This document shows, piece by piece, positions 55,810-62,194 of a stretch of DNA of 64,000 bases; position 1 is the stretch's first letter, and every line of letters starts with the position of its first letter. Where the stretch lies: NCBI RefSeq assembly GCF_017114865.1, contig NZ_JADEYH010000025.1:1-64000 (forward strand). Direction: 5' to 3'. The stretch is from Streptomyces verrucosisporus (GTDB taxonomy: Bacteria; Actinomycetota; Actinomycetes; Streptomycetales; Streptomycetaceae). Under the pieces are notes generated by a model. The model was not told the origin of the DNA and did no database searches. It worked only from the letters and a program-made list of their open reading frames with translations. The translations under genes and the position numbers were made by a program.

Positions 55810-56364
55810 TCAGAAGGACACGTCGATGTAGTCGATGTCGGTGAAGGCGACGTCGAGGTGTTCGGCGCGGCGGCCGCCGTCGCGGAAGTACTCCTCCCGC
55901 AGGCCCTCGGCGACGATGTCGCGCAGCTGCCGGTCGTCGGCCCCCTGCTGCCGGGCGGCGAAGAGGCGGTCGGCGTAGGCCGGGGGAAGGTGGACGGTCA
56001 GGCGGCGCAGGCGGGGGTCGTCGGTGGAACCGATGGGGGCCGAGTAGCCGAAGCGGGCACGGGTCTCGATGGTGATGCCGCCGGTGGTCGCGGCCTCGCG
56101 GCGGCGGCGCCTGCGCACAAGGGGCTGCCAGCGGGCGCGGACGGCGGCGTCGATGCGGTCGGCGATGTGCCGGGGCGGGTTCTTCCGGTCGCCTCTGCGG
56201 TAGCGCTCCACCGAGCGCTGGCTCACCCCGAGTTCGGCGGCCACGGCGCGGGTGGTCCTGAGCTTGCCCAGCAGGAAGTTGATCCGGGCCTGGAGGGACT
56301 TGGGCGGGTTGCGGGTGAACGTCTCCGCCTCGGCACGCTCGATGGCGTCGTCGATCTCCCCCAC
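55810..56364 (-). CDS. tpg: Telomere terminal protein of linear Streptomyces replicons
   Basis: 184 residues, the standard Tpg length. It starts GEIDDAIERAEAETFTRNPP, has an HTH (TRAVAAELGVSQRSVERYRR), a strongly basic patch (LVRRRRRREA) and the conserved block ARFGYSAPIGSTDDPRLRRL. Thr114 in GSTDD aligns with the residue reported to be deoxynucleotidylated in S. coelicolor Tpg. It primes end-patching synthesis and stays covalently bound to the 5' DNA ends. GTG 56364 has AAGGAG eight bases upstream. It lies 3 bp after tap. Confidence 0.95.
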   Translation of the reverse strand: MGEIDDAIERAEAETFTRNPPKSLQARINFLLGKLRTTRAVAAELGVSQRSVERYRRGDRKNPPRHIADRIDAAVRARWQPLVRRRRRREAATTGGITIETRARFGYSAPIGSTDDPRLRRLTVHLPPAYADRLFAARQQGADDRQLRDIVAEGLREEYFRDGGRRAEHLDVAFTDIDYIDVSF

Positions 56365-56367
56365 GGG

Positions 56368-58506
56368 TCACTCTCCTTCGTCCAGGACGGCGTCGACGCC
56401 GTCCTTGATGTGGCGGGCGGGGTTGTAGCCCTGCTCCATCAGGTCGACCGCCCAGGCCAGCTGCGCCACGCCCTCGACCTTGCACAGGCCCGGGCTGGGG
56501 CCGAGCCGGAAGGAGCCGGGCAGGGGCTTGCCGGAGGCGGTGCGGGGCAGGAAGTCCAGCGGCGAGTCGCCGGGGCTGGGGTAGACCACGCAGTCGGACA
56601 GCACGGCCAGGGGGTACAGGCCGGTCGCCTCGGCGGTCCTGAGCATCTTGCGGTGCATGTTCACCCGGGCCCTGGAGATGACGGCCGCGCGGATGTCGGG
56701 GCGCCAGGTCGGGCGCTGAAGGGCGGGCCAGCGCTCCCCGTCCCGGTGGTGGCGTCCCTGGGGGCGCTCGCGGAGCTTGCCGATGCCGCCCTTGACGGTG
56801 GCCTTGATCGCGGCCAGGACCATGACCAGGGCGGGATCGGTGTGCTTGTGTCGCTCCATCGCGGCGAGATAGGCGGTGTCGGTGAGGTCCCGGGTGACGC
56901 CGAGGTCGGCGAGGGTGTCGAGGTAGGCGGCCTTGAGCCGGTCGTGCCATGGGTCGAGGTACGCGCCGCTGTCCCTGCGCAGGTACGCCTCGGCCGGCCG
57001 GACGTCGTACCCCAGCTCCTGGGCGTAGGCGACGGTGGGGGTGGCGTACCAGGCGGGTCCTTCGGGGCGCTCGCCGGTGGGGGTGAAGGGCGAGGGCAGG
57101 CGAGGGTCCAGGTCGACGTGGGACAGGTCCACCAGCCAGCAGCCGGGGACCTTCTTGTCGAACACCGGGCGGGTGACGTGCTCGGGGCCGGACAGGCCGA
57201 CGGCGAGACGGGCGGCGGCGGCCAGGAACGCGGTGTTGATGTCCAGGCCGACGGCGAACGGCAGCAGGCATTCGGCGTCCGACAGCAGGTCGACGTCGCG
57301 GACCCACTGGTAGACCTCCTCGTCCAGGAACCCTCCTTCCCAGCCCCGGGCGACGGGGTGCCCGGTGGGCGCCTCGGGCGGGGCGGGGTCGACCGGTTCG
57401 GTGCCCAGCGACCCGGGGCTGCGGCCGGAGACCCAGGCGCCGCTGCCGGCGTCCCGCACGGCACGGGTGGGCGGGCGCAGGGCGGTCATCAGCTCCAGGC
57501 CGGTCACGGCCGTGGAGCCGCGCGGGGTGATGACCCGGGCGGCGTAACGGCCCAGCGCGTCGGCGAGCCGGGCCGGTTCCAGGTCGGCTGCACCCGGCCA
57601 GGCCCTTGGGTCGAGCGCGTCCCAGGACAGGATCGCCAGCTGTACGCACTGCCGGCGGCCTTCGGTTGCGGGTCGGTACACGCGGGCCCAGGGACCGAAG
57701 CCGCGCTTGGTGAGTTTCCACCGCGCCTTCGTCAGCTGTTTGACCACCGGGTGGTCGTCGGGCAGGCGCAGGGTGCGGCGGGCCTCGTGCCCTTCCAGGC
57801 GCTCGGGCAGGCCGAGCGCGACCGCCGCGGAGGCGGTGAGCACGATCAGCGGATCGGAGTCCCGGCCCGCGCGGTGCAGACGGGGCGCTCCCAGGCCGGA
57901 TTCGGCCAGTGTCCACTCCACCAGCCCGGCGATGGTCGTGGCCGGGCACTCCAGGACGATGCCCTGTGCGCCGTAGGCGAGACCGTCGCCGTCCAGCACG
58001 GCCAGCGGGCCGTGCCGGTAGGAGGTGACGGCGGCGGGGGCGGCGGTGTCCGGCACCATCGGCCGCTCACGCGCCGGGCGGGGCGGCCGCGCGGGCCGGG
58101 ACGCGGACTCGGGGAGCCGCTTCGCGTCCGGTGCGGCGGCGGACTTCGGCCCGGCCGGAGGCTCGGGGGGTGCGGCGGGGACGGCGGGCCGCCCGGGGGT
58201 GGGCGCCGCGGTCGGTTCCTGCGGTGCCGGCGCGGACGGGGGTGAGGCGGCTTCGGTTTCCGGGTACTTCGCGGCCCAGCCCTCCAGCAGCCGCTGGTAA
58301 GCCTGCAGCCGCGGCGGCCTCGGCTCCGCGCGCCCGTTCTCCCAGTTCTTCACCGTCTGCAGCGTGGACTTCATCGCCTGGGCCAGACGGGCCTGGGTGA
58401 TTCCGGCGGCCTCCCTCAGCCGGGCCCGCTCCGCCGGGGGCGGCAGTTGCGGCTCCTCCTCCAGCAACGCGTCCACGGACGCGAACAGCTCTTCCTCGGT
58501 GGGCAC
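56368..58506 (-). CDS. tap: Telomere-associated protein
   Basis: About 712 residues (731 if ATG 58563 is used; S. coelicolor Tap is about 740). An N-terminal Xre-like HTH (AGITQARLAQAMKSTLQTVK) is followed by a Pro/Ala-rich linker (about residues 80-170) and the large Tap domain (DGDGLAYGAQGIVLECPATT; RKMLRTAEATGLYPLAVLSD). Tap binds the folded 3' overhang of the telomere and recruits Tpg. I prefer GTG 58506, with GGAGG eight bases upstream. It forms an operon with tpg and is divergent from the ribbon-helix-helix gene. Confidence 0.94.
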   Translation of the reverse strand: MPTEEELFASVDALLEEEPQLPPPAERARLREAAGITQARLAQAMKSTLQTVKNWENGRAEPRPPRLQAYQRLLEGWAAKYPETEAASPPSAPAPQEPTAAPTPGRPAVPAAPPEPPAGPKSAAAPDAKRLPESASRPARPPRPARERPMVPDTAAPAAVTSYRHGPLAVLDGDGLAYGAQGIVLECPATTIAGLVEWTLAESGLGAPRLHRAGRDSDPLIVLTASAAVALGLPERLEGHEARRTLRLPDDHPVVKQLTKARWKLTKRGFGPWARVYRPATEGRRQCVQLAILSWDALDPRAWPGAADLEPARLADALGRYAARVITPRGSTAVTGLELMTALRPPTRAVRDAGSGAWVSGRSPGSLGTEPVDPAPPEAPTGHPVARGWEGGFLDEEVYQWVRDVDLLSDAECLLPFAVGLDINTAFLAAAARLAVGLSGPEHVTRPVFDKKVPGCWLVDLSHVDLDPRLPSPFTPTGERPEGPAWYATPTVAYAQELGYDVRPAEAYLRRDSGAYLDPWHDRLKAAYLDTLADLGVTRDLTDTAYLAAMERHKHTDPALVMVLAAIKATVKGGIGKLRERPQGRHHRDGERWPALQRPTWRPDIRAAVISRARVNMHRKMLRTAEATGLYPLAVLSDCVVYPSPGDSPLDFLPRTASGKPLPGSFRLGPSPGLCKVEGVAQLAWAVDLMEQGYNPARHIKDGVDAVLDEGE

Positions 58507-58697: not shown

Positions 58698-58907
58698 TGG
58701 CACCTGATGACATCAAGTGGCGCCACTGGGAGCCATCCGGCGCCACCGAACACCCAAAAGACCTCGCGCACGCGCATGGCGCCACCGTCGCACAGGCCAC
58801 CGGGTCCGCGTTTCCGCAGTTCAAGGCAGCCAATCTCGGGCCCTTCACACACAGGACGCCATCCGGGCTTGCACTTGGCACCACATGGTGCCACCATGGC
58901 GCCATGG
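58698..58907. repeat. Cluster of GGCGCC-type palindromes between tap and the RHH gene
   Basis: The gap 58507-58903 holds repeated TGG(C/T)(G/A)CCA boxes: TGGCACC (58698), the palindrome AGTGGCGCCACT (58716-58727), GGCGCCA (58739), ATGGCGCCAC (58776), TGGCACCA and TGGTGCCA as an inverted pair (58876-58893), and CCATGGCGCCATGG (58894-58907), which contains the ATG at 58904. TGATGACATCA (58705-58715) is a further dyad. This suits cooperative binding by a ribbon-helix-helix protein, or a centromere-like array. Confidence 0.6.
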
Positions 58908-59501: not shown

Positions 59502-60347
59502 ATGCCTTCTTTCGACACTCCCGAACCGATCTCGGCCACGGCACACGTGGAGGCCGGCTCCATCCGGTTCACGGCGGGCGACCGCCTCGACACCGTCGTC
59601 GAGGTGCTGGCCCGCGACCCGAAGCGTGAACAGGACGTACGGGCGGCCGAGCAGACCGAGGTCACGTACTCCGGCGGCACCCTGACCGTCAGGACGCCCA
59701 GGCGGCGCCACCTCGTCGGGCGCACCGGCATCGTGGACGTGACGGTCGAACTGCCCGCGGACTCGCACGTCGACATGACCGGCGCCTGGGCCCAGGTGCT
59801 CGGCGAGGGCCGGCTCGGCGAGGTCCGGGTGAAGACCTCCTCCGGTGACGTCCGCCTCGATGTGACCGGCCCACTGAAGCTGACGGCCTCCCACGGCTCG
59901 GTCACCGTCGACCGGGTCGAGGGATCGGCCGAGATCACCACCAGTTCCGGAAGCCTGCGCGTCGGTGCCGTCCGCGGTCCCGCCGTCCTGAAGAACTCGC
60001 ACGGCACAACGACCGTCGGCACCGCGGCGGACGAACTGCGGGTGCACGGCGCCAACGGCGACATCGACGTCGCGCGCGCCGAGGGCCCGGTCGTCGCCAC
60101 CACCGCCCACGGCACCTTGCGCATCGCTGAAGTCGCTCGCGGGACAGTCCAGTTGGAGACCTCCTACGGAGCCATCGAGGTCGGCGTCCGCGAAGGGACA
60201 GCCGCCTGGCTCGACGTCAGCTCCGGCCGGGGGCAGGTGCGCAACACCCTCGCCGCCTCCGAGGCCCCGGAGAAGACCGAGGACACCGTCGAGGTACGCG
60301 CCCGGACCCGCTACGGCAACATCGACATCCGCCGCGCCCGGGCCTGA
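59502..60347 (+). CDS. DUF4097 beta-strand repeat protein
   Basis: 281 residues of short repeated beta strands (VRVKTSSGDVRLDVTGPL, SAEITTSSGSLRVGAV, VATTAHGTLRIAEV), the usual adhesin-like beta-helix of DUF4097. There is no signal peptide or membrane helix, so it is probably cytoplasmic. AGGAGG lies 11 bases before the ATG. It is encoded between the RHH regulator and the DrrAB-like exporter, a recurrent order in Streptomyces; its role is unknown. Confidence 0.85.
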   Translation: MPSFDTPEPISATAHVEAGSIRFTAGDRLDTVVEVLARDPKREQDVRAAEQTEVTYSGGTLTVRTPRRRHLVGRTGIVDVTVELPADSHVDMTGAWAQVLGEGRLGEVRVKTSSGDVRLDVTGPLKLTASHGSVTVDRVEGSAEITTSSGSLRVGAVRGPAVLKNSHGTTTVGTAADELRVHGANGDIDVARAEGPVVATTAHGTLRIAEVARGTVQLETSYGAIEVGVREGTAAWLDVSSGRGQVRNTLAASEAPEKTEDTVEVRARTRYGNIDIRRARA

Positions 60348-60416: not shown

Positions 60417-61412
60417 ATGCCTTCATCTATCATGTCCACATCCAAAGGGAAGGGCTGTCCGCAGCCGCCCGCCGCCGTCTCCGCCGCCGGGCTGCGCAAG
60501 TCCTACGGCGACAAAACCGTCCTCGACGGCATCGACCTGCACGTCCCGGCCGGATCCGTGTTCGCGCTGCTCGGGCCCAACGGCGCCGGCAAGACCACCA
60601 CAGTCAGGATCCTCTCCACCCTCATCGGCGCCGACGACGGCCGGGCCCTGGTCGCGGGTCACGACATCGCCACGTCACCGCAGGCCGCACGCGCCGCGAT
60701 CGGCGTCACCGGGCAGTTCTCCGCCGTCGACGGCCTGATCACCGGCGAGGAGAACATGCTCCTCATGGCCGACCTGCACCACCTCTCCCGCCGCGAGGGG
60801 CGGCGGGTCACCGCCGAACTGCTGGAGCGCTTCGGCCTCGCCGACGCCGCCGGGAAACCCGCCTCCACCTACTCCGGCGGCATGAAGCGGCGCCTGGACA
60901 TCGCCATGACACTCGTCGGCGACCCGCGCGTCATCTTCCTCGACGAGCCGACGACCGGACTCGACCCGCGCGCCCGCCACAACATGTGGGGAGTCGTCCG
61001 TGAACTCGTCACGGGCGGCACCACGGTCCTGCTCACCACCCAGTACCTGGAGGAGGCCGACGAGCTCGCCGACCGCGTCGCCGTGCTCGCGGGCGGCAGG
61101 ATCGCCGCCGAGGGCACCCCCGACGAGCTGAAGCGGCTGGTCTCCGGCGGCCATGTCCGCCTCCGCTTCACCGACCCGGCCGCATACCGGTCCGCCGCCC
61201 TCGCGCTGCGCGGGGCCGCCCGCGACGACGACTCCCTCGTACTGCGGATCCCCAGTGACGGCAGCCAGCGCGAACTGCGCTCCATCCTCGACCGGCTGGA
61301 CTCCGCCGGTATCGAGGCGGACGAGCTTACCGTGCGCACCCCCGACCTCGACGACGTCTTCTTCGCCCTGACCGGCGGCACCGACCAGCCCTCCGAGGAG
61401 ATCTCCCGATGA
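60417..61412 (+). CDS. ABC transporter ATP-binding protein (DrrA type)
   Basis: 331 residues: Walker A GPNGAGKTTTV (near residue 60), signature YSGGMKRRLDIAMTL, Walker B VIFLDEPTTGLDP, H-loop TTQYLEEADEL, and the DrrA-type C-terminal segment ending DLDDVFFALTG. This class exports anthracyclines and similar drugs with a DrrB partner, whose gene overlaps by 4 bp. Confidence 0.93.
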   Translation: MPSSIMSTSKGKGCPQPPAAVSAAGLRKSYGDKTVLDGIDLHVPAGSVFALLGPNGAGKTTTVRILSTLIGADDGRALVAGHDIATSPQAARAAIGVTGQFSAVDGLITGEENMLLMADLHHLSRREGRRVTAELLERFGLADAAGKPASTYSGGMKRRLDIAMTLVGDPRVIFLDEPTTGLDPRARHNMWGVVRELVTGGTTVLLTTQYLEEADELADRVAVLAGGRIAAEGTPDELKRLVSGGHVRLRFTDPAAYRSAALALRGAARDDDSLVLRIPSDGSQRELRSILDRLDSAGIEADELTVRTPDLDDVFFALTGGTDQPSEEISR

Positions 61413-62194
61413 GTTCCCTGTCCCTCGTCGTCCGCGACTCGTCCACGATGGTGCGCCGCAGTCTCCTGCATGTGCGGCGCTACCCCTCCCTGACACTGAA
61501 CCTCCTGCTCACTCCGGTCGTTCTGCTGCTGCTGTTCGTCTACGTCTTCGGCGAGGTGATGAGCGCGGGCATCGGCGACGCCGGCCGCTCCGCCTACCTC
61601 GCCTACCTGCTGCCGGGCCTGCTGCTGATGACCATCGGCAGCACCGTGGTGGGCACCGCGGTGTCGGTGTCCACGGACATGACCGAGGGCATCGTCGCCC
61701 GTTTCCGCACGATGGCGATCCACCGCGGCTCCGTGCTCATCGGGCACGTCGTCGGCAGCGTGCTGCGGTCGGTCGCCAGCGTGGTCCTCGTCGGCGCCGT
61801 CGCCGTGGCCGTCGGCTTCCGGTCCGCGGACGCGACCGCCCTGGAGTGGCTGGCGGCTTTCGGGCTGGTGACACTGGTCGCCCTGGCGCTGACCTGGATC
61901 GCCGTCGGGATGGGCATGGTCAGCCCGAACGCCGAGGCGGCGAGCAACAACGCGCTGCCGCTGATCGTCCTGCCACTGGTCTCCAGCGCCTTCGTCCCCC
62001 TGGAGGCGATGCCGGGCTGGTTCCGGCCGATCGCCGAGTACCAGCCCTTCACCCCGGCCATCGAGACACTGCGCGGCCTGCTGCTCGGCACCGAAATAGG
62101 CCACAACGGCCCGCTCGCCGTCACCTGGTGCCTGGGCCTGGCCATACTCGGACACCTCTGGTCCAGGTACCTGTTCAACCGCGACCCGAAGTAG
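61409..62194 (+). CDS. ABC-2 type transporter permease (DrrB type)
   Basis: 261 residues with six hydrophobic helices. ABC-2 features include the polar N-terminus, LLLTPVVLLLLFVYVFGEVM, LPGLLLMTIGSTVVGTAVSV and the loop PLEAMPGWFRPIAEYQPFTP before the last helix. It pairs with the upstream ATPase, probably for drug or lipid export. Confidence 0.92.
   Translation: MSSLSLVVRDSSTMVRRSLLHVRRYPSLTLNLLLTPVVLLLLFVYVFGEVMSAGIGDAGRSAYLAYLLPGLLLMTIGSTVVGTAVSVSTDMTEGIVARFRTMAIHRGSVLIGHVVGSVLRSVASVVLVGAVAVAVGFRSADATALEWLAAFGLVTLVALALTWIAVGMGMVSPNAEAASNNALPLIVLPLVSSAFVPLEAMPGWFRPIAEYQPFTPAIETLRGLLLGTEIGHNGPLAVTWCLGLAILGHLWSRYLFNRDPK

Follow-up and report, generated by a model that had tools for sequence, protein, structure and literature searches.

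What is the function of the palindrome array that lies upstream of a gene encoding a ribbon-helix-helix (RHH) protein, and close to the telomere genes tap and tpg, in Streptomyces verrucosisporus? The locus is part of a 64-kb stretch of DNA, which we refer to as the window (64,000 nucleotides). The relevant features are listed in Table 1. Positions with a minus or plus sign are relative to the RHH start codon.

Table 1. Features at and around the palindrome array.
Feature	Coordinates	Strand	Remarks
tap-tpg pair	55810-58506		Divergent from RHH operon; likely tap start at 58506
Distal operator lattice, five 8-bp sites at exact 10-bp steps	58698-58745	.	58698 TGGCACCT, 58708 TGACATCA, 58718 TGGCGCCA, 58728 GGGAGCCA, 58738 CGGCGCCA
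Lone perfect box at -127, 39 bp from lattice	58777-58784	.	Exact TGGCGCCA
Second conserved element, not an RHH box	58811-58826	+	TTTCCGCAGTTCAAGG; fixed at -93/-94
Weak box at -50	58854-58861	.	GGACGCCA; box at -51 in other loci
-35-like hexamer TTGCAC	58869-58874	+	Position predicted from conservation; TTGCGC/TTGACA in relatives
-10-like hexamer CACCAT (NANNNT)	58892-58897	+	Between core boxes 2 and 3; predicted from conservation
Core operator, three perfect boxes (TGGYRCCA)	58876-58904	.	58876 TGGCACCA, 58886 TGGTGCCA, 58897 TGGCGCCA
RHH regulator, 170 aa	58904-59416	+	C-terminal Arc/CopG-like RHH domain (about 107-151), N-terminal helical domain and two strands, flexible linker
DUF4097 (Toastrack) protein, same operon as RHH	59502-60347	+	Adjoins RHH gene in 80/80 loci
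DrrA-like ABC transporter ATPase	60417-61412	+	Match in 74/80 loci, several cut by contig ends
ABC-2 type permease	61409-62194	+	Match in 64/80 loci, several cut by contig ends

The initial annotation of this DNA had counted at least six boxes in 210 bp. This was correct, and the array is larger. In the window, it comprises about ten boxes, eight of which have no more than one mismatch to TGGYRCCA. Two boxes had been described as perfect palindromes; we find three perfect copies of TGGCGCCA, at 58718, 58777, and 58897. One-base variants of this sequence are TGGCACCA (58876), TGGTGCCA (58886), and CGGCGCCA (58738), and the extra boxes of the array lattice are TGGCACCT, TGACATCA, GGGAGCCA, and GGACGCCA. 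As had also been noted, one box covers the RHH start codon; the box at 58897-58904 ends on the A of the ATG (58904). The boxes form two groups: distal, from -206 to -166 together with -127, and proximal, at -50 (weak), -28, -18, and -7. Two properties were not part of the initial annotation: box spacings are strictly 10 or 11 bp, and a promoter is embedded among the proximal boxes. Between -330 and +8, there are 8 words with at most one mismatch to TGGYRCCA, where a mean of 0.93 is expected, and none of 5000 dinucleotide shuffles of the upstream region reached 8 boxes. Over the whole 64-kb window, motifs of this type are not enriched (36 found, 59 expected). Hence, the box density results from local clustering.

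Lack of the boxes in related strains had been named as an outcome that would refute the initial interpretation. We looked for them there, and they are conserved. Each of 80 named loci, nearly all from Streptomycetaceae, has the array, with 8.4 boxes per locus on average (range 4-15) compared to 0.98 in shuffles. Distances between pairs of distal boxes pile up at 10, 20, 30, and 40 bp (179, 140, 94, and 70 pairs) and those between proximal boxes at 11 and 22 bp (139 and 90 pairs). The core box steps are 10 and 11 bp in the window, and 11 bp in most relatives. About half of the Streptomyces RHH loci have a box at -127/-128. In 230 loci, which represent at least 20 families of the bacterial class, the core is at exactly -29/-18/-7 in 193 cases and within 1-2 bp of this in the rest. 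Furthermore, the promoter core is the best three-box match over -400 to +450 in 208 of the 230. Orthologues from across the class retain this core even when identity is as low as about 32-40%, as do Streptomyces paralogues. The long 10-bp lattice is a Streptomycetaceae feature (5.6 upstream boxes, against 1-3.4 elsewhere). Since the lattice is absent or short outside this family, it is dispensable for the basic function.

The core operator covers the promoter spacer, the -10 element, and the start codon of the RHH gene. A -35-like TTGC(G/A)C sequence, TTGACA-like elsewhere, sits before the core boxes. Every sequence of the aligned sets has A at -11 and T at -7 in the -10-like NANNNT element. 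Note that a generic sigma-70 scan of the RHH upstream region found no promoter, because TTGCAC and CACCAT deviate from the E. coli consensus; the promoter call comes from conservation. The end of the -10-like hexamer is 6 bases from the RHH ATG and, because of the -35/-10 geometry, the transcription start site is predicted at the ATG. A Shine-Dalgarno-like 4-mer lies upstream of the RHH start in 4 of the 230 loci. The equivalent figure for DUF4097 starts is 106/106, among those locatable within the same loci. Such near-absence at RHH starts is as expected for a leaderless first gene. We infer that the mRNA of the RHH operon is leaderless and begins at the RHH start codon. The operator thus overlaps the promoter of the RHH gene and is conserved with that gene, as in autorepressor systems.

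The RHH protein itself has a match to the Pfam HicB (RHH) family at residues 111-141, narrowly over the cut-off (22.4 versus 21 bits). A structure model made from 92 diverse sequences had a pLDDT of 82.2, whereas a shallow alignment gave a poor model (63.5). Residues 107-151 of the AlphaFold model align with CopG, PutA, Arc, and AmrZ (rmsd 1.6-2.8 over 43-47 residues), with a structural Z of only about 5 because the RHH domain is short. The segment has the attributes of the RHH superfamily, a ribbon and two helices with conserved polar ribbon residues. The single-chain model lacks the ribbon strand itself, which is unsurprising because the dimer partner is missing. In an ungapped structural alignment, Arc residues 7-49 lie on residues 108-150, so Arc residues 9, 11, and 13 fall on R110, N112, and R114. 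The three Arc residues are those that contact bases. Of 230 loci, 228 conserve R110 and R114 and, with three exceptions, the ribbon reads R-x-[N/T/S]-x-R throughout. A PDB sequence search with the first family alignment returned TAL-effector repeats only, the best single stretch having an E of about 8; these matches are an artefact, because repeats were summed. The same search with the RHH segment alone gave nothing useful.

In the window, the operon has the order RHH-DUF4097-ABC-ABC, with small gaps. The RHH protein is matched in 129 of 199 genomes of the genus (a few at E of about 1e-4 only). Orthologous operons occur on 43 plasmid records, with the RHH product annotated as a HicB family antitoxin or as hypothetical. 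An actinobacterial operon encoding Toastrack, ABC ATPase, and permease proteins, with an RHH transcription factor, has been reported (PMC11237479). Judging from the relevant passages of that paper, the operon in the window appears to be the same. Those passages describe gene neighbourhoods only, without an operator, promoter, or mechanism. In the literature covered by our search, which lay outside subscription journals, we found no paper on the RHH operator.

Box sequence varies with the RHH ribbon. The boxes read TGGYRCCA where ribbon residue 112 is Asn and TGACRTCA where it is Thr or Ser. Across the 230 loci, base 3 of the half-site is G in 764 of 948 cases with Asn, and A in 302 of 414 cases with Thr or Ser. 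Exceptions to the Thr/Ser rule exist, for example at locus L129. A tally by locus, on the set used for a protein tree, gave 48 Asn loci with G-rich boxes, 57 Thr/Ser loci with A-rich boxes, 2 against the rule, and 11 ties. In a family-stratified permutation, within the four families holding both residues, covariation this strong arose in 0 of 20,000 trials. Residue 112 changes at least 7 times on the best tree, which is poorly resolved, and well-supported branches carry one independent pair of switches only. Hence, the covariation may reflect few events. Because residue 112 and box sequence covary, the sequences indicate that the RHH protein itself binds the boxes.

We considered whether the boxes could instead be sites for some other widespread actinobacterial regulator, with the RHH gene merely a target. 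This reading draws on the fact that binding by the RHH protein is deduced from sequence. Against it, box sequence follows the RHH ribbon residue, and double boxes are hardly ever found away from RHH loci. Closely spaced double boxes occur only at the RHH locus in the genome of S. verrucosisporus and, in 101 genomes of the genus, 61 of 74 are just upstream of the RHH gene; the other 13 are not above the reversed-pattern control (21). We consider such a regulator highly improbable. The initial annotation also raised the possibility of a partition-like site. Certain RHH proteins, ParG and omega among them, use tandem repeats as binding sites for partition as well as for autoregulation, and this precedent, like the plasmid records mentioned above, would suit a centromere bound by the RHH protein. 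Such a role is barely credible, given that the operon has no ParA-like gene, the ATPase being a DrrA-like subunit of an ABC exporter. In addition, the core is locked to the promoter and start codon in 230 loci, double boxes are at this one locus in the S. verrucosisporus genome, and the gene is in only about two thirds of the Streptomyces genomes sampled. We therefore rejected a par site, for want of an adjacent ParA-type ATPase and with the array at a single locus. A HicAB type II toxin-antitoxin system was also rejected; there is no adjacent hicA toxin gene and DUF4097 is next in all 80 loci. Similarly, an RNA element was discarded, as Rfam gave only two miRNA families, both sub-threshold, consistent with chance.

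The array had further been described as shared with the promoter of the telomere operon, so linking RHH autoregulation to expression of tap-tpg. Of this proposal, autoregulation is strongly supported by the core at 230 RHH promoters and by the covariation between residue and box. The other part, that the RHH protein or a further factor acts from a shared regulatory region to control tap-tpg, is very unlikely. In its favour, tap is divergent in the window. Sharing of the tap promoter was not seen, and roughly 190 bp separate the first box (58698) from the likely tap start (58506). Neither tap nor tpg is beside the orthologous RHH operons at the 80 named loci, though all carry the array. DNA searches of 41 relatives locate the boundary. 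Homology to the RHH unit begins at 58698-58701, which is the first box, while homology to tap (58301-58500) ends near 58500. The tap and RHH halves match separate places in the genomes of these relatives. Among the matches listed in 199 genomes, no other tap adjoins an RHH gene, and the shortest distance between the two elsewhere is about 28 kb (genome G170). By a crude GC-frame rule, the upstream neighbour of the RHH gene usually runs in the same direction (49 cases, versus 19 divergent). A tap-tpg linkage was thus rejected from the 80 named loci, the matches listed in 199 genomes, and the 41 relatives. Because tap is absent from the 80 loci, the halves are separate, and the neighbour is usually codirectional, the telomere link is best viewed as a local accident of the strain. 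Among the strains examined, this is the only one where tap-tpg adjoins the RHH operon. The neighbourhood may be a recent join, which is possible because the operon is often plasmid-borne.

We conclude that the array is very probably an operator for cooperative autorepression of the RHH-DUF4097-ABC exporter operon. In the proposed mechanism, one RHH dimer would bind each 8-bp palindromic box, with the antiparallel ribbon (R110-V-N112-L-R114) inserted in the major groove. The boxes at -28, -18, and -7 would each hold one of three adjacent dimers, stacked with an offset of about one helical turn. DNA covered in this way would run from the promoter spacer through the -10 element to the first base of the leaderless mRNA. 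Occupancy of the core would then block RNA polymerase and repress the operon. Repression is most likely strengthened by additional dimers on the distal lattice (-206 to -166, with -127). These could contact promoter-bound dimers, over 75-100 bp, or raise the local protein concentration. The inducing signal is perhaps sensed via the N-terminal domain or the Toastrack protein. We infer repression, rather than activation, from one feature, the overlap between core operator and promoter. Note that RHH proteins can also activate, as do AmrZ and NikR (PMC3325190).

The distal lattice could have a different purpose. Conceivably, it is an activating or looping module, where lattice and core dimers form one higher-order complex, its geometry determined by the constant spacing together with a protein on the -93 element. 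In favour of this, steps are exactly 10 bp in the lattice but 11 bp in the core, and across the 80 loci there is little variation in the position of the -93 element or of the gap that separates lattice from core. Conversely, loci differ greatly in how many distal boxes they carry (with a total of 4-15 boxes per locus), families other than Streptomycetaceae lack the lattice, and the case for looping is drawn from box positions rather than from direct evidence. We regard this as possible but somewhat doubtful. An evolutionary version of the idea is more tentative still. In Streptomycetaceae, an ancestral three-box autorepressor might have expanded into a two-register nucleoprotein switch, with a 10-bp filament site and an 11-bp core held at a fixed distance around a third element bound by another factor. 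Dimers would bridge or loop the arrays, and so generate an all-or-none response of the leaderless operon. Cooperative autorepression remains our preferred reading.

The element at -93 is distinct from the boxes. The sequence RTTTYCGCAGNTCARRG is at -93/-94 in most Streptomyces loci. Patterns matching it were found in 41 of 41 Streptomyces genomes, while reversed-pattern controls gave zero. In the form TTTYYGCAGSTCARRG, there are about 3-4 copies per Streptomyces genome (window positions 58811-58826; L116; L251-L279). The genes downstream of some copies, judged by eye from protein starts, we take to be carD and panD. Copies also occur in hairpins near a tRNA gene or tRNA-like sequence, and near a cation-efflux-like gene. 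Our search for a known name for TTTYYGCAGSTCARRG found none. The presence of this conserved element may mean that another regulator acts at the RHH upstream region.

Several known systems resemble the one described here. MetJ met boxes and the heptads of plasmid omega proteins are tandem short sites, each for one RHH dimer, that permit cooperative repression. The window system also has tandem arrays of short sites. However, its 8-bp boxes are spaced by 10 or 11 bp, rather than being contiguous, and no link to SAM or partition was seen. The RHH fold is common to the Arc, Mnt, and AmrZ repressors, the last of which is an autorepressor that binds DNA as a dimer of dimers (PMC3325190). In contrast to these systems, there are three to ten boxes, not two to four half-sites, and the DNA-binding domain is C-terminal, behind a long N-terminal domain. 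Furthermore, the predicted leaderless promoter is built into the boxes and controls an ABC exporter operon. HicB-family antitoxins share the narrow Pfam match but, in the window, the RHH gene has no adjacent toxin gene. RelB, of relBE, places RHH dimers side by side on one helix face at its own promoter, with a spacing essential for cooperativity (PMC2812701). RelB uses a toxin co-repressor and hexad repeats, whereas the window has many spaced 8-bp palindromes.

Related proteins occur in other settings. Three RHH paralogues (L118, L119, and L124) keep the core geometry with altered boxes (TCGCGCCA, CAGCGTGA, and TGNCGCCA), and at least two of them adjoin carrier-protein-like genes of NRPS type. 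Since paralogues beside NRPS-type genes keep the core operator geometry, this suggests use of RHH paralogues in biosynthetic gene clusters. The lunaemycin cluster encodes a DUF4097 protein preceded by a 177-aa protein of unknown function (PMC9866976). The pair resembles RHH-DUF4097, making the 177-aa protein a candidate RHH protein only. Separately, two genes with the same three-box operator (L130 and L131) are near RHH paralogues of the same genomes. Each encodes a product without the RHH domain, in which the N-terminal domain of the RHH protein is joined to a C-terminal stretch resembling DrrA.

Together, these observations turn a gene with an antitoxin-like annotation, beside a telomere gene, into one for a regulator found throughout the class, with an operator positioned to base-pair precision. 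The predicted leaderless promoter, inside the operator, would be a compact natural repressor-promoter pair for actinobacteria. Because base 3 of the box follows ribbon residue 112, the specificity rule (Asn with TGGYRCCA, of the TGGCGCCA type, and Thr or Ser with TGACRTCA, of the TGACGTCA type) offers a natural switch for DNA recognition by a beta-ribbon. Finally, antibiotic gene clusters may harbour related RHH-DUF4097 pairs, so export of, or protection from, an antibiotic-like compound is a possible role for the operon.
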